Shown in pieces: positions 7,346 through 18,726 of a stretch of DNA of 23,119 nt. Both the position numbers and the translations under genes were made by a program. Each line of letters starts with the position of its first letter. Position 1 is the first letter of the stretch. The DNA is from a virus. The stretch lies in IMG/VR virus record IMGVR_UViG_3300032245_000564, positions 1 through 23,119 of that record; one strand, given 5' to 3'. The notes below the pieces were generated by a model. The model did not search any database, was not told where the DNA came from, and worked only from the letters and a program-made list of their open reading frames with translations.

Positions 7346-7716
7346 CGCAGTGCCTCAACCTTGCTGTGGAACTCGGCGTAATGTTCAGCCTTCACATCGT
7401 TGATGTTCGCGTAACCCATCCCGGTCAGGATGGCTTGGATCTCCTGCCCTTTTGCGGGGCCGACAGCACGGTACACATCCATGACGTACTGGATGAGTCC
7501 TTTGGCGTCTGCAAACGGTGCCGGTGCAGCCGCAACAACAGGAATGGGTTGCGGCACAACAACAGGTGCTGGGGCCGGTGCAGGCGGGGCAACCGGAGCG
7601 GGTTGGACGGCAACGGACGGCAACGGACGAGCTGCACCGGTGCCATATGCTGCGATGGTTGCGGTCAGTGCCGTGATCGCGGCAGTCAGTGCTTCAATTT
7701 TCAGTTCGATTGACAT
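7342..7716 (-). CDS. Hypothetical protein with Pro/Ala-rich linker
   Basis: A 124-residue protein in three parts: a short helical, possibly self-associating N-terminus (MSIELKIEALTAAITALTAT), a Pro/Ala/Val low-complexity linker from about 30 to 68, and a compact C-terminal domain with GLIQYVMDVYRAVGP and a terminal helix. The ATG at 7716 has TAAGGA eight bases upstream. It overlaps the regulator gene by 23 bases and the nuclease gene by 4. The layout of two folded ends joined by a flexible tether suggests an adaptor in the replication complex, but I recognise no family and the role is inference. Confidence 0.7.
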   Translation of the reverse strand: MSIELKIEALTAAITALTATIAAYGTGAARPLPSVAVQPAPVAPPAPAPAPVVVPQPIPVVAAAPAPFADAKGLIQYVMDVYRAVGPAKGQEIQAILTGMGYANINDVKAEHYAEFHSKVEALR

Positions 7717-7900
7717 ACAGTTTTTCCTTACGGGTTACGGGTGCTGCGATGGTGAGGCGATCTTCAACGAAAGCCTCGATTAGTTCACGCAAGATGTCGG
7801 CAGGTGTGCCGAACTTGATTGCCTTAGCGTGAAAGCTGCGCCGCGTCGAGCTTGTTACTCGCACGGTCAAAACGTTGTTTAAGGGTTGTTTGCTTATCAT
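7694..7900 (-). CDS. Ribbon-helix-helix DNA-binding protein
   Basis: A 68-residue protein with the ribbon-helix-helix pattern: a short strand NVLTVRVTS at about 9-17, helix A SSTRRSFHAKAIKFG, and helix B PADILRELIEAFVEDRL. Such proteins dimerise through the strand and insert it into the major groove. It is the first gene of the minus-strand replication operon and sits next to a divergent control region with an inverted repeat, so it is well placed to repress its own operon and perhaps the primase. The ATG at 7900 has no ribosome site, and the candidate -10 lies only about ten bases upstream, so the message may be leaderless. A role as regulator is inference. Confidence 0.75.
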   Translation of the reverse strand: MISKQPLNNVLTVRVTSSTRRSFHAKAIKFGTPADILRELIEAFVEDRLTIAAPVTRKEKLYVNRTEN

Positions 7901-8001: not shown

Positions 8002-8025
8002 ATGAACACCAAAGACACTATATGA
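8002..8025 (+). CDS. Seven-codon leader ORF coupled to the primase
   Basis: ATG at 8002 opens a seven-codon frame encoding MNTKDTI. Its TGA (8023-8025) overlaps the primase ATG (8022-8024) as ATGA. A good ribosome site, AAGGA, lies about nine bases before the leader ATG, whereas the primase ATG itself has none. This arrangement suggests ribosomes load on the leader and restart on the primase gene. The peptide itself probably has no function. Confidence 0.45.
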   Translation: MNTKDTI

Positions 8026-10454
8026 GCATTCTGCAATCAGTGCAATCACATCCTGCGTCAGTCGATGCGTACATCCGACACGGGTGGAGTCTTGTCCCGA
8101 TACCTGCTGGCACCAAGGGGCCGCGCACGCCTGCGTGGAACCTCAAAGAGAATGCACTGCGTAGTCAGACCGATCTGCCTGCGGGCTTTGGCATCGGACT
8201 GGCCCATGCGTACAGCGGCACGATGGCGCTCGACATCGACAACTGGAACGCCACGGTCAAGCACGGCATTGACCTAGCGGCACTCTACGCTGCGCCTGAT
8301 GCCGTGATCGTTGACAGCAGCAGGCCGGGGCACGGCAAGTTGCTGTATGCCATGCCGTTTGCATTGCCATCGAAGAAAATCATTGTCGATGGTGTGACCG
8401 CTTTCGAGCTTCGATGCGCAACTGCATCGGGCTTGACTGTGCAGGATGTGCTGCCGCCAAGCATCCATCCTGACACAGGTCAACCGTACAGATGGGCTGG
8501 CAGTGGTCATTGGACAAGACTGCCGCTTATCCCTGAGTCGATTCTGTTGTTGTGGCAGTCGATGCTCAACGATGACAAAGCGCGCAGCATTCCGACAGAT
8601 GGGCCGATTGGTGCATCGTGGAGTGAAATTAAATCGGCAGTCGATGCAATCCCGCCCACCTGCACGCGAGATGAGTGGATCAGTGTCGGCATGGCGCTGC
8701 ACTACGCTGGCACACAGACCGACCAGCTCAATGAGTCGTTCCATGTGTGGGATCAGTGGTCGCAGGGTGCGCCTGATAAGTATCCTGGCGCACATTCGAT
8801 GGTGGTGCAGTGGTCGAGCTTTAGACCGGACAAGGCGACTGCGGTCAAGCTCGGCACGCTCTACTGGCTTGCTAAAGAGAACGGGTGGGTGCGTCCACCT
8901 ATCGATGTTGCTGGTCTGTTCGCAGCGTTGCCAGTGCTCAGTCCTGCGACAGTGATCGAGGACTTTAGACCACCCGCGCCCGACATCGATCTGAGTCTGT
9001 TCCCAAAAGTCTTAGGCCAGCGAGCACAGGAAGTCAGTGAGTCCATCGGATGCGATCCACTGATTCCAGCCTTCGCTGGCCTAGCCGCAGTATGTGCGGT
9101 AGTCGATGCGCGGATTAGACTTGAGTTGATGCCTGGTTTCAAAGTGCCACCAGTTTTGTGGCTTATGACGATTGGTGCGCCAGCAGACAAAAAGTCTCCC
9201 GGTAGTAAACCCATGCTGACTGTGCTCAAAGCCATCGAGCTTGAGGATAGGCCACGATATCAGCAAGACTTACTTGATTGGGAAGGCAAGGAGGCAGCAC
9301 ATGCTGCTGCGAAGCGGGCGTTCTTAGAGTTCGCAGCCTCACCTGAAGCTCTGCTAGGTGGGTCGCAGCCACCCATCGTACCCAATCTTCCCGCAGCACC
9401 TGCTCCGTTGCGATTCACCATATCGGATGTAACCAGTCAGAAAATGGTGCGACACGCAGCAGAGCGCCCGCGTGGTTTGCTGCTGTACCTTGATGAAATG
9501 GCAGCATGGGGCAAAAAGCTCACAGACAAGCATACGGGTGAGGATAGATCGGCATGGGTGGTCTCGTATGAGTCTGATTACTACGAAATGGATCGGGTTG
9601 GTGCTGGCAGCATCTTTTGTGAGAATTTAGCAGTTAGCATTTTCGGAAACATTCAACCCCGAGTGTTTTCCGAACTTTTGCCGAACATGAGCACAGACGG
9701 ACTGTTGCAACGGTTCATTCCTGTTGTGCTGCGTGGTGGTCGGGCAAAACTGGGCAACCCCATGCCTGAGTGGGCGGGATCGACTGCGCAGTGGGAGTCT
9801 ATGCTGCGCATGATCCATTCGATTCCCGAACAGACCTACACAATGTCGGATAGTGCGTACACTGAGTTCCGCGCATTCCAGGAATGGTATGAAGAGCGTA
9901 AGCAGGATGAGCGCCTGCTGTTGTCGAATGATGTGTTCATGACCGCATTTGGCAAAATCGAAGGCACCACGGGTAGGCTTATCCTGATATGGCACATCAT
10001 GGAGCATCCGCACCAGTCGCGGGTCGATGTGCAGACAGTGCGTACTGTTGTTCAACTTGTGCGGCAGTACGTCATATCGGCGTTGCGCTACGCATTTGGT
10101 GAGCTTGACTCGTTTAGTGGTTGGATAGCCGACTACATCATCCAGTTTTGCGACAAGGGCACAATTACGATGTCGGAACTGCGAAGGGCTGCGAAGCGGC
10201 AATTCGATGGTGTGTCGCAGCACATGCAGGAACAGACGATTCTAAACAACATGCGAGAGCTTGAGGAGGCAGGGTGGGCGATTCGCATCGATGACGGGTC
10301 ACGCGAGCACCAGCACCATGCAGAGTGGGCACTGAATGCAGGATTGAAGGAACGGTTCGCAGACTATCGTCGTCGCGTGGTGCAGGCTAAACAACGGCGC
10401 AAGGACGAGCGGCATGGTGTAAAGATGCCGCCCATATGGGGTAACGATGACTAA
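8022..10454 (+). CDS. Primase-polymerase / DUF3987 helicase-like replication protein
   Basis: An 810-residue multidomain replication protein. The N-terminal part (about 14-185) is a bifunctional primase/polymerase domain with ALDID as the acidic metal-binding motif near residue 70, SRPGHGKLLY, and PPSIHPDTGQPYRW. Residues of about 205-295 resemble a PriCT domain, with DEWISVGMALHY and a W-x-x-W pattern. The rest is a DUF3987-type ATPase-like region with GAPADKKSPGSK near 384-395 in place of a classical P-loop and a Walker B-like LLLYLDEM near 486-493. It probably makes primers and may unwind the origin. It is the only plus-strand gene of the left half, isolated between two minus-strand operons, and ends by overlapping the convergent gene by 4 bases. 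Confidence 0.88.
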   Translation: MSILQSVQSHPASVDAYIRHGWSLVPIPAGTKGPRTPAWNLKENALRSQTDLPAGFGIGLAHAYSGTMALDIDNWNATVKHGIDLAALYAAPDAVIVDSSRPGHGKLLYAMPFALPSKKIIVDGVTAFELRCATASGLTVQDVLPPSIHPDTGQPYRWAGSGHWTRLPLIPESILLLWQSMLNDDKARSIPTDGPIGASWSEIKSAVDAIPPTCTRDEWISVGMALHYAGTQTDQLNESFHVWDQWSQGAPDKYPGAHSMVVQWSSFRPDKATAVKLGTLYWLAKENGWVRPPIDVAGLFAALPVLSPATVIEDFRPPAPDIDLSLFPKVLGQRAQEVSESIGCDPLIPAFAGLAAVCAVVDARIRLELMPGFKVPPVLWLMTIGAPADKKSPGSKPMLTVLKAIELEDRPRYQQDLLDWEGKEAAHAAAKRAFLEFAASPEALLGGSQPPIVPNLPAAPAPLRFTISDVTSQKMVRHAAERPRGLLLYLDEMAAWGKKLTDKHTGEDRSAWVVSYESDYYEMDRVGAGSIFCENLAVSIFGNIQPRVFSELLPNMSTDGLLQRFIPVVLRGGRAKLGNPMPEWAGSTAQWESMLRMIHSIPEQTYTMSDSAYTEFRAFQEWYEERKQDERLLLSNDVFMTAFGKIEGTTGRLILIWHIMEHPHQSRVDVQTVRTVVQLVRQYVISALRYAFGELDSFSGWIADYIIQFCDKGTITMSELRRAAKRQFDGVSQHMQEQTILNNMRELEEAGWAIRIDDGSREHQHHAEWALNAGLKERFADYRRRVVQAKQRRKDERHGVKMPPIWGNDD

Positions 10455-13295: not shown

Positions 13296-13314
13296 TCATG
13301 CACTGAGTGCATGA
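13296..13314. promoter_or_regulatory. Palindromic operator candidate at the promoter start point
   Basis: TCATGCACTGAGTGCATGA is an 8-bp perfect inverted repeat around TGA. It covers the expected transcription start (about 13313) of the leftward promoter at 13320-13348, the position where a repressor would block initiation. It could equally form a hairpin at the 5' end of the message. Confidence 0.5.
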
Positions 13315-13319
13315 GTGAA

Positions 13320-13348
13320 ACTATACCTGTACCTTGTACTGTGTGCAA
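13320..13348 (-). promoter_or_regulatory. Candidate promoter of the small-gene operon
   Basis: On the minus strand TTGCAC (13343-13348) and TATAGT (13320-13325, 5/6 to consensus) are separated by exactly 17 bp. The -35 is a poor match. Transcription would begin near 13313 and give a leader of about 40 bases to the ATG at 13272. Operator-like repeats on either side support regulation here. Confidence 0.5.
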
Positions 13349-13383
13349 TAGGGAATCGTTCCACTTTTGTGACTTATTGCACA
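13342..13383. repeat. 9-bp inverted repeat over the -35 region
   Basis: TGTGCAATA (13342-13350) and TATTGCACA (13375-13383) are perfect inverted copies, 33 bp apart start to start, about three helical turns. The left arm overlaps the -35 of the leftward promoter, so this may be an activator or repressor site. Confidence 0.5.
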
Positions 13384-13585
13384 ATGTTGGAGTGAGTGTG
13401 CCAACTGGACGCAAAACGAGTAGGTCGATTTTGAGGAAACCTATAATTCTGTACCCACTGGAAAATAGTCTAGAAACGCTCTAAAGAGACCCGTACATCG
13501 TATGGTTAATCGGTCTGCGCCTGCTCTAAATTTCTCCCAGATTTTGACTTACGCTTTTCCGGCGACTTGGCACATGGCCCTGACC

Positions 13586-13608
13586 CACTGTGCAACATGG
13601 GCACAGTG
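13586..13608. repeat. 8-bp inverted repeat
   Basis: CACTGTGC (13586-13593) and GCACAGTG (13601-13608) flank a 7-base spacer. Related TGTGCA words follow at about 13607-13612 and 13628-13633, so this may be part of a cluster of protein-binding sites. Confidence 0.55.
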
Positions 13609-13680
13609 TGCACATGTTCTGCACCTTGTGCAAGTGATGCCTGTCTTGCTGGGGCATATGGTACTGCGACCCCTTTTACC

Positions 13681-13742
13681 AGCCTACCGCCCCAGTGAGT
13701 GCTCACTAACCTAGCCTACCGCCCCAGTGAGTGCTCACTAAC
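13681..13742. repeat. Two tandem copies of a 30-bp repeat, 32-bp period
   Basis: Copies at 13681-13710 and 13713-13742 are identical over 30 bases, separated by CT. Each contains AGTGAG-TG-CTCACT, a 6-bp inverted repeat. Exact identity in noncoding DNA suggests recent duplication or a binding site kept in two copies. Confidence 0.9.
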
Positions 13743-13744
13743 TT

Positions 13745-13795
13745 GGGGCATCAAAGGGGTCGCGCCAGCAAAGGGGTCGCGCGGCTCGATGCCCC
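13745..13795. repeat. Inverted repeat enclosing two 13-bp direct repeats
   Basis: GGGGCATC (13745-13752) and GATGCCCC (13788-13795) form an 8-bp inverted repeat. Between them AAAGGGGTCGCGC occurs twice, at 13753-13765 and 13770-13782. The reverse complement of its first 11 bases, GCGACCCCTTT, also occurs at 13666-13676, so the region could fold into alternative stems. Confidence 0.85.
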
Positions 13796-13856
13796 CGGCT
13801 AGGGCCGAGCGCAACATGCAATAGCGCCGGTGGCACCACGAACACCGTAAAAAATT

Positions 13857-13884
13857 TTTATAAATATAAGTTGCACGTTGTCTA
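13857..13884 (-). promoter_or_regulatory. Possible second leftward promoter
   Basis: On the minus strand TAGACA (13879-13884, 5/6) and TATAAA (13857-13862, 5/6) are 16 bp apart. A transcript would cross the repeat region before reaching the gene at 13272, more than 570 bases away, so it may instead be a regulatory or primer RNA. It could also be a chance product of the A/T-rich run. Confidence 0.25.
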
Positions 13885-13928
13885 TTTATGCGGTAGCAAG
13901 ACACTTCCCGTGCTAGGATCAGGACACT

Positions 13929-14483
13929 ATGGATAAACAAACTCTTGATTCCGTAGGCGCAGAAACTGCGGTAGCTACAAACTCCAATTCGTTGCCGGAT
14001 TGGCTAACCGCTCCTGCGCCACGCCCACCCGCCACATCGAGCCAGGGTCGCGCTTTGCTGTTCGATCTGTACGAAGCGGTCTTTCCTCGCGTACTCGATA
14101 AGATTTACAGCGGCTCGACCTTGCAGGCCGCGCTCAAGGATGACTTTCGAGACATTGACGCTGGTGCGTTCATGCGATGGATCAAGAAAGACCCCGACCG
14201 GCACGGTCTGTACAAAGAGGCCAAAGAGATTCGCACTGAGGCTTGGGCAGGCAGGCTCATCGACCATGCGGTAGGTGCTGACTTGGCCGAGGACGTTCAG
14301 CGTTCCAAGGTAGCGGTGGACGCCTACAAGTGGCTGATGGCTGCGGACAATCGTCGCGTGTATGGCGAGACAAAACAGATTGACTTCGGTGGCACCATCT
14401 CGATCAACAGCGTGCTGGCTGCGGCACGCGAGCGGATCGTGAACGTGATCGACATCACTCCCCAACTGGAGATGGACGACTGA
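13929..14483 (+). CDS. terS: Terminase small subunit
   Basis: A 184-residue protein placed directly before the large terminase gene. The N-terminal 35 residues are a disordered Ala/Pro/Ser stretch. Then LYEAVFPRVLDKIYSGSTLQAALKD and FMRWIKKDPDRHGLYKEAKEIRTEAWAGRLID form the helical DNA-binding and oligomerisation core usual for small terminases. The C-terminal part (from about 150) likely contacts the large subunit. It recognises the packaging site on phage DNA. The ATG at 13929 is preceded by two AGGA motifs, the nearer only about four bases away. Its TGA overlaps the large subunit ATG as TGATG. Confidence 0.85.
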   Translation: MDKQTLDSVGAETAVATNSNSLPDWLTAPAPRPPATSSQGRALLFDLYEAVFPRVLDKIYSGSTLQAALKDDFRDIDAGAFMRWIKKDPDRHGLYKEAKEIRTEAWAGRLIDHAVGADLAEDVQRSKVAVDAYKWLMAADNRRVYGETKQIDFGGTISINSVLAAARERIVNVIDITPQLEMDD

Positions 14484-16021
14484 TGCAGAAGCCCATCTAC
14501 AGCGCCGAGGAGGAGATGGTGCTGATGACTCAGTTGTGGTCGCCGCAGATTGCCGATGACCCCGAGACATTCGTTATGTTTGTCTTCCCGTGGGGGCAGC
14601 CGAACACACCCTTGGAGAAGTTCAAGGGGCCGCGTATGTGGCAGCGTAAGGTGCTGCGCGAGCTTACAACGTTCATCAAGGCTAACCGGGGTAAGCTGAC
14701 CAACAATGAACTAATCGACGCGATGCGCGATGCCACGGTGTCGGGTCGAGGCATCGGGAAGTCGGCACTGGTCAGTTGGCTGATCCTGTGGATGCTGACC
14801 ACGCGCATAGGATCGAGCGTGATCGTAAGCGCCAACAGCGAGAACCAGCTTCGTAAGGTCACTTGGGGCGAACTGACCAAGTGGGCAACGATGGCGCTCA
14901 ACGCCCACTGGTGGGAACCGACCGCGACAACCCTGGTGCCCGCGCAGTGGCTGGCCGAGCTTGTCGAGCGTGACCTCAAGAAGGGCACACGCTACTGGGG
15001 CGCAGAGGGTAAGCTGTGGTCAGAAGAAAACCCTGATTCGTATGCCGGTGTGCACAACATGGACGGCATGATGGTTATTTTCGATGAGGCGTCCGGTATC
15101 CCCGACAGCATATGGTCGGTGGCCGCGGGGTTCTTTACAGAGAACATCCTCGACCGTTACTGGCTCGCGTTCAGCAACGGACGACGCAACCAGGGCTACT
15201 TCTACGAAGCGGTCGAGGGTAGTAAACGGGACTTTTGGAACTCGCGCAAGATCGACGCTCGCTCAGTCGAAGGCACCGACCAGTCGATCTACAACCAAAT
15301 CATCGAAGAGTACGGCGCAGATTCTGACCAAGCCCGTATCGAGGTGTATGGCGACTTTCCCAAGAGCGGTGACGATCAGTTCATCGGGCCGTTTGTAGTC
15401 GATGAGGCAGTCAAACGCCCGCTCTACAAGGACGCCACCGCACCCATCGTCATCGGCGTAGACCCCGCTCGCAGCGGCATGGACTCCACCGTCATCGTAG
15501 TGCGCCAAGGACGGGACATCACCTCGATCAAACGCTACCAAGGCGACGACACCATGACCGTTGTCGGGCACGTAATTGAGGCCATCGAGGAGCATAAGCC
15601 CACTTTGACCGTAATTGACGAGGGTGGGCTTGGCTACGGCATCCTTGACCGGCTGGTTGAGCAGCGTTATAAGGTCAAAGGGGTTAACTTTGGCTGGAAA
15701 GCTAAAAACTCGGTCATGTGGGGCAATAAACGGGCCGAGTTGTGGGGCGAAATGCGCAATTGGCTCAAAACTGCCTCAATTCCAACCGACCGACTGCTTA
15801 AAAACGACCTGACTGGACCTAAAACCAAGCCCGACAGCAGCGGCAAAATATTTTTAGAGTCCAAAAAGGACATGAAGTCGCGCGGATTGGCTTCTCCCGA
15901 CGCTGCGGACGCTATTGCAGTAACTTTTGCGTTCCCGCTGGCCCACCGAGAGTACAATCCTAAGCTGCCCCGGCGTGCAATGGCTCCCGGAGGAGTCAGT
16001 AACTCTTGGATGGGATCGTAA
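14483..16021 (+). CDS. terL: Terminase large subunit
   Basis: The DNA packaging motor, 512 aa, with an N-terminal ATPase and a C-terminal nuclease. Walker A is SGRGIGKS at 87-94 and Walker B is MMVIFDEAS at about 196-204, with the catalytic Glu at 202. The RNase H-like nuclease has [12 protein letters not shown] (Asp327), VIDEGG (Asp379) and SPDAADA (Asp473/Asp476). All key residues are present and the length is normal. It pumps DNA into the prohead through the portal and cuts it. It starts overlapping terS and ends overlapping the next gene as TAATG, so the late genes are translated as a coupled series. Confidence 0.96.
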
Positions 16022-16301: not shown

Positions 16302-18367
16302 GCCAAAAAGAAATGCTTGATACGATGCGCGACCGTCTAAAGACGGCCATCGCAGCGTATTCAGACTCACGCGAAGATGAGCTAGACGATCTTCGCTTTA
16401 TGGCTGGCTCACCTGACAACCAATGGCAATGGCCTGCGGACGTATTGGCGACTCGCGGTGCGGTGCAAGGTCAGACCATCAACGCACGCCCCTGCCTGAC
16501 CATCAACAAGCTGCCCCAGCACGTTCGGCAGGTCACCAACGACCAGCGTCAAAACCGGCCCAGTGGCAAGGTCATCCCCGCAGATGATAAAGCCGATCCC
16601 GAGGTTGCTGAAATCTTCAACGGACTGGTGCGCCACATCGAGTACATGTCGGACGCAGACATTGCCTACGACACTGCCTGCGAGAACCAAGTCACTTACG
16701 GCGAAGGCTACATCCGCCTGCTGACCGAATATTGCGACGAAAACACGTTCGATCAGGATATTCGGATCGGACGTATTCGCAATTCGTTTTCGGTTTACAT
16801 GGACCCGATGATCCAAGACCCTTGCGGCTCAGATGCGCAATGGTGCTTTATCACCGAGGACATGACTAAGACTGAATATGAGCGCATGTATCCTAACGCA
16901 GCGCCCATCACCAGCATCATGTCACAAGGTATTGGCGATCAAGCCCTGTCAATGTGGATTACGCAAGAAACAATTCGTATTTCTGAATATTTTTACTATG
17001 AAACGAAACAAGAAACTCTAAATCTGTACCCCGGCAACGTGGCCTATTTTAAGGGCACGCCCGAGGACAAACAGATGCAGATGATGGGGATGAAGCCCAT
17101 CAAATCGCGCCAAGCCGACCGCAAACAGGTTAAATGGTGCAAGACCAACGGTTACGAAGTCCTAGAGGAACGGGACTGGGCTGGCAAGTGGATTCCTGTC
17201 GTCCGAATCGTTGGAAACGAGTTTGAAGTAGACGGGCAAATGTACATTTCGGGCCTTGTGCGCAACGCCAAGGATGCGCAGCGGATGTACAACTATTGGG
17301 TGAGCCAAGAAGCAGAGATGCTGGCGCTGGCACCCAAAGCGCCGTTTATTGGCTACGGCGGGCAGTTTGAGGGCTACGAACAGCAGTGGAAAACGGCTAA
17401 CACTACCAACTGGCCGTATTTAGAGGTCAATCCCGACGTTACAGACGGTCAGGGTGGGACACTGCCATTGCCCCAACGGGCATTGCCTCCAATGGCGCAA
17501 ACAGGGCTTATTCAAGCCAAAATGGGCGCTGCGGACGACATCAAATCGACCACGGGGCAGTACGACTCCAGTATCGGCGCGACCTCCAATGAACGCTCGG
17601 GCAAGGCGATCTTAGCTCGCGAGCGTCAAGGCGATACCGGCACTTATCATTTCGTAGACAACCTTGCGCGTGGCGTGCGGCACATCACGCGGCAAATAAT
17701 TGATCTAGCCCCGAAGATTTACGACACGCAGCGCATTGCTCGGGTCATTGGTCTTGACGGTGAAACCAGCATGGTCAAGATGAACCCTGACCAGCAGGAG
17801 CCTGTGCGCGAGATTCGGGATGAATCGGGTATTGTCATTGAAAAGATTTACAATCCCAGCGTTGGCAAATACGACGTTGTGGTGACCACTGGGCCGTCCT
17901 ACATGACTAAGCGTCAAGAGTCGATGGAGGCCATGTCGCAGATTTTGCAAGGTAATCCCGGCCTCTGGTCAGTCGCTGGTGACTTGTTCGTCAAAAACAT
18001 GGACTGGCCGGGTTCTGCTGAAATGGCTGAACGCCTGCGCAAGACCATTGATCCGAAGTTGATGGAAAATCAAGACGATCCGGCGCTGCAAGCTGCCAAC
18101 CAGCAAATTCAAGCAATGGGTCAAGAAATGGAAGGTATGCGCAACATGCTCCAAAGTATCAGCAACTCGATGGAGTTCCAAGAGTTGCGGATCAAAGAGT
18201 ATGACTCCGAGACTAAACGCATCAGTGCGGTCGCAGCGGGTATGCAGCCTGAGCAAATTCAAGAGATCGTAGTGCAGACGTTGCGCGATGTAATGGAGCT
18301 TGGCGTGCAGATGCCGGGCCCGCCCGAAATGATGCCTGAGGCTGAAGAGCCGGGGATGGAACAATGA
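16298..18367 (+). CDS. Portal protein, P22 type
   Basis: A 689-residue portal protein of the P22 gp1 family. Twelve copies form the ring through which DNA enters the head and to which the tail attaches. Recognisable parts are the N-terminal WPADVLATRG, then INARPCLTINKLPQHVRQVTND with QNRP and the following VIPADD, a helical wing, and the stem/clip and crown regions. The C-terminal about 90 residues are rich in Gln, Met and Glu and likely form the barrel or a flexible tail. Its length is close to the family norm (about 700). It starts on the stop of the preceding tiny gene and its own stop overlaps the next gene as ATGA. Confidence 0.94.
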   Translation: MSQKEMLDTMRDRLKTAIAAYSDSREDELDDLRFMAGSPDNQWQWPADVLATRGAVQGQTINARPCLTINKLPQHVRQVTNDQRQNRPSGKVIPADDKADPEVAEIFNGLVRHIEYMSDADIAYDTACENQVTYGEGYIRLLTEYCDENTFDQDIRIGRIRNSFSVYMDPMIQDPCGSDAQWCFITEDMTKTEYERMYPNAAPITSIMSQGIGDQALSMWITQETIRISEYFYYETKQETLNLYPGNVAYFKGTPEDKQMQMMGMKPIKSRQADRKQVKWCKTNGYEVLEERDWAGKWIPVVRIVGNEFEVDGQMYISGLVRNAKDAQRMYNYWVSQEAEMLALAPKAPFIGYGGQFEGYEQQWKTANTTNWPYLEVNPDVTDGQGGTLPLPQRALPPMAQTGLIQAKMGAADDIKSTTGQYDSSIGATSNERSGKAILARERQGDTGTYHFVDNLARGVRHITRQIIDLAPKIYDTQRIARVIGLDGETSMVKMNPDQQEPVREIRDESGIVIEKIYNPSVGKYDVVVTTGPSYMTKRQESMEAMSQILQGNPGLWSVAGDLFVKNMDWPGSAEMAERLRKTIDPKLMENQDDPALQAANQQIQAMGQEMEGMRNMLQSISNSMEFQELRIKEYDSETKRISAVAAGMQPEQIQEIVVQTLRDVMELGVQMPGPPEMMPEAEEPGMEQ

Positions 18368-18726
18368 GTTGCGCTGACTTTGTAGGGGCGCTGTTTTTGG
18401 CGCGAGATGTGGCGCACAGCGTCCATCTGAATACCCGTTCTTACGCAAAACATGTAGCGCTTAATGAGTTCTACGACAACATCGTGGAACTAGCGGATAA
18501 GTTTGCTGAAGCCTATCAAGGTCGGCATGGTTTGATCGGGCCGATCACGCTGAAGTCGGCTCGCAAGACTACCAACATCTTGGAGTTCTTGCAAGATTCG
18601 CTTGCTGAGATCGAAGATGCTCGGTACAAGGTCTGCGAAAAGACCGATACACCCATTCAGAACATCATTGATGAGATTGTTGGGCAGTACCTGTCCACTC
18701 TCTACAAACTTCGTTTTTTGGCGTAA
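18364..18726 (+). CDS. DUF5856 (ferritin-like) protein
   Basis: A 120-residue, all-helical protein beginning MSCADFVGALFLARDVAHSVHL, with SYAKHVALNEFYDNIVELADKFAEAYQGRHG and a C-terminal IIDEIVGQYLSTLYKLRFLA. I recognise it as the DUF5856 type found in many marine and freshwater phages, whose His/Glu-bearing helices resemble a ferritin-like/Dps fold. In a virus it could be carried in or coupled to the head, but no activity is proven to my knowledge. It overlaps the portal stop as ATGA. Confidence 0.75.
   Translation: MSCADFVGALFLARDVAHSVHLNTRSYAKHVALNEFYDNIVELADKFAEAYQGRHGLIGPITLKSARKTTNILEFLQDSLAEIEDARYKVCEKTDTPIQNIIDEIVGQYLSTLYKLRFLA

Follow-up and report, generated by a model that had tools for sequence, protein, structure and literature searches.

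The results presented here indicate that the intergenic region upstream of terS in an uncultivated freshwater phage is probably a packaging-initiation locus, with a conserved 68-bp element (13797-13864) as its core, a headful mode of packaging and an accessory array of repeats upstream. The phage is podovirus-like with a P22-type portal, and is represented by IMG/VR record IMGVR_UViG_3300032245_000564, the full 23,119 bp of which were analysed and are referred to as the window. From sequence comparison we infer that the terminase would dock at the element, that the first cut of a packaging series would probably fall within it, and that packaging would then proceed by headful measure (pac mode). 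The short-repeat array upstream may help in recognition as an accessory region, read most likely by the small terminase and exchanged together with terS.

An earlier note on this DNA had described the repeats at 13586-13869 as a candidate packaging site or replication origin. All of these repeats are present, and the proposal is partly supported in that packaging is favoured over an origin. A packaging site near terS gains support, through comparison, for the conserved element and not for the repeats as such. Two features go beyond the earlier note: the right edge of the region is a separate element, and a 20-nt inverted repeat bounds a block upstream (Table 1).

Packaging sites have been established in a limited number of cultured phages only. 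With a DNA motif that leads to the terminase genes, packaging sites could be proposed for phages that have not been cultured, and satellites or transduction-prone DNA would be easier to flag.

Table 1. Features of the terminase-upstream region, in window coordinates.
Feature	Position	Strand	Remarks
20-nt inverted repeat bounding upstream block 13397..13574	13397-13416/13555-13574	.	Partly conserved in L002 and L003
8-bp inverted repeat	13586-13593/13601-13608
8-bp inverted repeat with degenerate GCAC..TGTGCA units	13586..13633	.	Repeated 30-bp counterpart in L002
Two identical 30-bp copies	13681-13710 and 13713-13742	+	Start-to-start 32
Oriented palindrome AGTGAGTGCTCACT	13694-13707 and 13726-13739	+	One per 30-bp copy
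Enclosing inverted repeat	13738-13752/13788-13802		80% over 15 nt
Two 17-bp tandem units with AAAGGGGTCGCG	13749..13782	+	Inverted 11-bp copy at 13666-13676
13-bp direct repeat CAAAGGGGTCGCG	13752-13764 and 13769-13781		In 17-bp units, 94%
Conserved terminase-linked element	13797..13864	+	Candidate packaging-initiation core; profile E 1.4e-9
GGnCC box	13802..13806	+	4/5 positions invariant or nearly so in alignment
CRCRAA box	13837..13842	+	Begins 35 bp past GGnCC box start
A/T tract of element	13848..13869 (about)	.
TGCTAGGAT	13911..13919	+	Possible extended -10 of terS promoter; conserved before terS in close relatives
terS	13929..14483	+	Sf6 gp1 family, type A; PF20901 E 7.5e-13; PDB 4dyc E 2e-10
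terL	14483..16021	+	phrog_2 E 6.9e-38

The conserved element and its position relative to terL

The repeats sit in a divergent intergenic region (13300-13928), with a leftward small ORF on one side and terS on the other. No intrinsic terminator was found in the region, and BLAST against INPHARED gave no match to it; BLAST searches with the conserved element returned weak, chance-level matches only. Relatives were gathered by TerS and TerL, the regions upstream of their terS genes were compared, and a profile was built from the common block. This block consists of AGGGCC, followed about 30 nt on by GGCACCACGAAC and then by an A/T tract. The resulting element is bipartite, with a GGnCC box, a CRCR box 35-36 bp on, and the A/T tract. 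The spacing between box starts is 35-36 bp in 89 of 92 distinct elements, and the A/T tract of relatives begins 3-13 bp past the CRCR box. Conservation is lowest between the boxes, where positions 24-27 carry less than 0.3 bits each. Boxes at a fixed spacing around an uninformative middle are the imprint expected of a protein that contacts two DNA sites at a fixed geometry. A structured RNA was also considered and was rejected: there is no Rfam match, and the element has no conserved fold (RNAalifold gave 0 pairs on 24 elements). The single-sequence RNA folding z of -3.5 is plausibly due to the palindromes.

Each of nine full-length relatives has a single copy of the element, located on the terL strand. 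To avoid the bias of a protein-based collection, all of IMG/VR was also searched with a degenerate 25-nt core of the element's DNA. This DNA-only scan returned 40 contigs. In every one of the 39 that could be tested, terL is encoded on the same strand as the element and lies 0-850 nt downstream of it; the fortieth stops inside the element. In another set, collected by TerL and including a small number of bacterial MAG contigs, the element precedes terL in the majority of members; most of those that lack it begin beyond its expected position. The element is a single oriented site near the terminase genes, 0 to about 1.9 kb upstream of terL.

The relatives carry three types of TerS: A, the Sf6-like type of the window; B; and C, which matches phrog_309. 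Type B has no family match and is a putative TerS, judging from its place, its size and its predicted helix pattern. An assignment of type B by fold was set aside, as the model was of low confidence and its best match, PaP3 TerS, was weak. In profile comparison the three types are alike only across the C-terminal 32-65 residues. Gene order differs as well: in type C the element follows terS and abuts the start codon of terL (terS-element-terL). Some type-C relatives (L097:1967-2413, also L106) have an insertion between element and terL, a gene for a Mom-like DNA modification protein (phrog_1384, PF25680). The element stays beside terL in the type-C order and despite the inserted gene. Its median identity is 0.64 between TerS types and 0.64 within type A, compared with 0.49 for shuffled sequences. 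TerL identities of 0.13-0.20 obtained for L007, L010, L012 and L015 in this comparison stem from estimated gene coordinates and were disregarded as artefacts. Moreover, a type-A relative (L010) and a type-B relative (L099) have a nearly identical core, and their likeness ends at the core borders. The undiminished identity between TerS types, together with this pair, indicates that the element follows terL rather than TerS type. Conservation in relatives, on which the earlier note had made its proposal depend, has two sides: the element is conserved and the position of the array is kept, whereas the repeat units themselves turn over.

Repeat arrays and TerS type

The repeats at 13586-13790 are lineage-specific arrays that are separate from the conserved right edge, and their units follow TerS type. 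Repeated 9-mers cover 99 nt of the 400 nt that precede the element in the window; 60 first-order Markov shuffles average 16 nt and reach 56 nt at most. The dense clustering that first drew attention to the region is thus above chance, and is equalled by only 1 of 109 other contig windows. The oriented palindrome consists of two 6-bp arms flanking TG, and at up to 3 mismatches it occurs 11 times in the window versus 2.3 expected, both strands counted. TGTGCAA, considered as an iteron, is not enriched in the window. Units resembling the 17-bp tandem units are present in L002 and, more weakly, in L003.

Repeat-rich sequence upstream of the element is common among relatives. At 107 of 135 loci the 400 nt preceding the element contain more repeated sequence than any of the shuffles, and many of the exceptions are type C. 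Of 74 type-A regions, 51 contain at least two copies of ACCCnnnGGGT, which no type-B or type-C region does; 9-bp tandems are found in 32 of 45 type-B regions. The 3' end of terS contains four or more GTTAC units in all 25 type-C regions and in regions of no other type; type-C genomes have no intergenic array before the element and carry these short units within terS instead. Upstream of the element in the type-B relatives L197, L202, L204 and L099 are 9-bp tandem pairs, each genome having its own unit (CATGACTAC, TTGCCTACA, TTGCTGACA and CATGACCCA).

On the TerL tree there are only two changes of TerS type. The association of array with TerS is therefore clade-level, and it was dropped as independent evidence. 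It is compatible with TerS-specific recognition and also with linkage by descent. In addition, one palindrome class is common to types A and B and to unrelated phages, so not every unit is specific to a TerS type. The results suggest a modular site, in which the core goes with TerL and the array goes with TerS. A modular site would make the question of what each terminase subunit reads a testable one.

Packaging mode, alternative roles and known packaging sites

The lineage of the window phage bears on the mode of packaging. Its TerS matches PF20901 and PDB 4dyc, its portal matches phrog_156 (P22-type), and its TerL is, among the characterised phages compared, nearest to those of epsilon15 and a Lederbergvirus and remotely related to P1 PacB; identities to characterised phages of 35-37% indicate a remote kinship. 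The kinship of TerS, TerL and portal favours headful packaging, and the element is more likely to serve as a pac site in headful packaging than as a cos site. If it were a cos site, staggered nicks in the GC-rich part would generate cohesive ends, and the A/T tract would be a small-terminase or bending site. We regard this as unlikely, and retain it because the A-tract beside the HK97 cut can belong to the TerS site (PMC11331095). The HK97 TerS site is 15 bp with an A-tract and lies 15-29 bp past the cos cut; the layout of the element, a GC-rich part and then an A/T tract ahead of terS, resembles this arrangement (PMC11331095). The HK97 left end before terS reads CCCGATTTTTTTAGTTTT. However, a nicking dyad should be constrained, and it is the stretch between the boxes that has drifted most, with no conserved dyad found there. 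None of the nine full-length contigs ends in the element, nor do contig ends in general accumulate at it, but metagenome contigs have little power to test this and mosaicism near terL is a confounder. Four of the nine close by an overlap of 109-127 nt away from the element, and these are assembly circles rather than virion ends. The window TerL has no BLAST match to the TerL of PaP3 or HK97, and the match to lambda TerL (27 residues, E 5) is not meaningful.

Headful packaging from the element must also be weighed against roles outside packaging. The locus could be the regulatory region of divergent operons, in which a regulator of phage or host origin would bind the palindromes and arrays as operators, controlling early or late transcription, and the element would be part of the control. 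For the repeats alone, regulation is a strong rival: the arrays lie within a divergent intergenic region, palindromic units are typical of dimeric repressors, terS-terL is usually first in the late operon, and the palindrome also precedes unrelated terminase genes. For the locus as a whole, regulation is improbable. The element keeps to terL even where it lies between terS and terL, at the very start codon of terL, and the interval separating it from terS differs by hundreds of bases among relatives, which is ill-suited to a core promoter and indicates that the element is not one. Still less probable, and to our minds a marginal reading, is the replication origin, in which the repeats would be iterons and the A/T run an unwinding element. 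Iteron-like repeats do lie next to an A/T tract, some relatives have DnaA-box-like units (TTGTCCACA-like; an array in L254), and the cumulative skew minimum falls near the element in 2 of 9 genomes. However, neither the minimum nor the maximum of GC skew, which the earlier note had named as a check, falls consistently at the element, whether in the window or in nine full-length relatives. DnaA boxes are not enriched (0.078 versus 0.062 per kb), no initiator gene adjoins the region (the primase gene is 3.3 kb distant), type C has no intergenic array at the element, and the A/T tract is part of the terL-linked element.

A packaging locus in two parts is of a known kind, represented by SPP1, lambda and P1. 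The P1 pac site has short repeats around the cut, inside pacA. P1 resembles the window family in its remote TerL kin (PacB) and in having repeats within pacA, much as type-C terS contains GTTAC units, but its repeat unit differs from that of the window family. The cos sites of lambda and HK97, which combine cosN with a TerS-binding part, share with the window a GC-rich part and an A/T tract followed by terS. Unlike these sites, the element has an unconserved middle, the contigs give no sign of fixed ends, and TerL is not close. The SPP1/SF6 pac site comprises pacL boxes, the pacC cut and pacR; its repeated boxes lie on one side and are distinct from the region of cleavage (PMC4737164). The comparison with SPP1/SF6 is one of layout, the cut site in the window being a candidate: both have a two-part layout at terS (PMC4737164), whereas in the window family the fixed-spacing core follows terL and the array units differ by TerS type. 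P22 and Sf6 are similar in their Sf6-family TerS, P22-type portal and a TerL of the wider group. The P22 pac site is a 22-bp asymmetric site inside terS (PMC7672466), whereas the core described here is intergenic and follows terL. The new parts are the TerL-linked core common to the TerS types and a palindrome found across phage families.

The palindrome in other phages and its similarity to SlmA sites

The palindrome of the 30-bp copies belongs to the class GTTAGTnAGTGCTnACTAAC. Occurrences of AGTnAGTnCTnACT or its reversed-centre variant number 36 in 2.07 Mb of loci, and every one lies 16-236 nt before the element. A scan of IMG/VR for GTTAGTnAGTGCTnACTAAC matched at least 120 viral contig stretches, compared with 0 for a reversed-pattern control. 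A further 129 loci were taken from among the matches listed for GTTAGTnAGTGCTnACTAAC and a variant pattern, and are not a random sample; 63 of them have the element of the window's family. TerL was seen in 100 of the 129, counting L339 and L370 on weak TerL matches, and the palindrome is upstream of terL in all 100. Of these, 37 were recognised through TerL queries of other kinds (phrog_2, phrog_38 and phrog_15 types), and in 33 of the 37 the palindrome is within 2 kb of terL. No TerL was found with the queries used in 27 of the 129 loci, and of these 27 one has a replication-initiation gene nearby and one a RuvC-like gene. The association of palindrome and terminase is therefore strong but not exclusive. 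Several copies of GTTAGTnAGTGCTnACTAAC precede terminase genes among L260-L388 (e.g., L268:825-892, L346:11997-12248 and L291:6677-6759); by TerL, the terminases in these examples are unrelated to the window family. A host repeat was rejected as the source of the palindrome, as in the only MAG with matches all of them were on the phage contig. The exact palindrome strings were not found in the literature searched.

It is possible, and we suggest it tentatively, that GTTAGTnAGTGCTnACTAAC is a phage-borne signal placed before terminases of different families, and that a single shared protein reads it (SlmA, for example, or some other TetR-like factor). Packaging or late expression would then be tied to a regulator independent of TerS. 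A palindrome upstream of terminases across families is the unexpected part of these results, if it is a real shared signal.

A narrower proposal is that the palindromes are SlmA-binding sites (SBS), through which the host nucleoid-occlusion factor would be recruited to phage DNA, for a division block or for marking of the packaging region. It has sequence likeness in its favour and is nonetheless improbable. The E. coli SlmA consensus is GTGAGTACTCAC (PMC3116907), and in each of the two window copies GTGAGTGCTCAC matches 11 of its 12 core bases. Two sites with at most 1 mismatch are found in the window versus 0.04 expected, and the exact E. coli core with TTA flanks occurs in 15 contigs, in 11 of them before a terminase or the element. 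Three MAGs with phage pieces of the family encode orthologues of SlmA with 46-57% identity and an intact VSEAALYRHF helix (the query was the E. coli sequence, confirmed against PDB entries). In addition, SBS on multicopy plasmids inhibit Z-ring formation in E. coli (PMC4117426). However, the window palindrome differs from SBS in having a central G instead of A, in being oriented and in being clustered before phage terminase genes. The window-type site GTGAGTRCTCAC is not enriched over a reversed control in 94 genomes of the same class as the putative hosts, the link between phage and host rests on MAG binning, and most relatives carry units other than the SlmA-like palindrome. No paper linking SlmA sites with phages was found in the mainly open-access literature searched. 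Two MAG contigs (L254 and L255) assigned to Rhodoferax and to a betaproteobacterium contain phages of the family with element and arrays, hinting at betaproteobacterial hosts.

Finally, several genes elsewhere in the window are of interest. Directly after the portal gene, 18364-18726 (+) matches DUF5856 and phrog_858 (starvation-inducible regulator). A single protein of 810 residues encoded at 8022-10454 (+) fuses Prim-Pol, PriCT_2 and DUF3987 (helicase-like) domains. Adjoining the start of this divergent Prim-Pol gene, 7694-7900 (-) encodes a small protein that by eye is like a ribbon-helix-helix repressor, and it may be a protein that binds the array.
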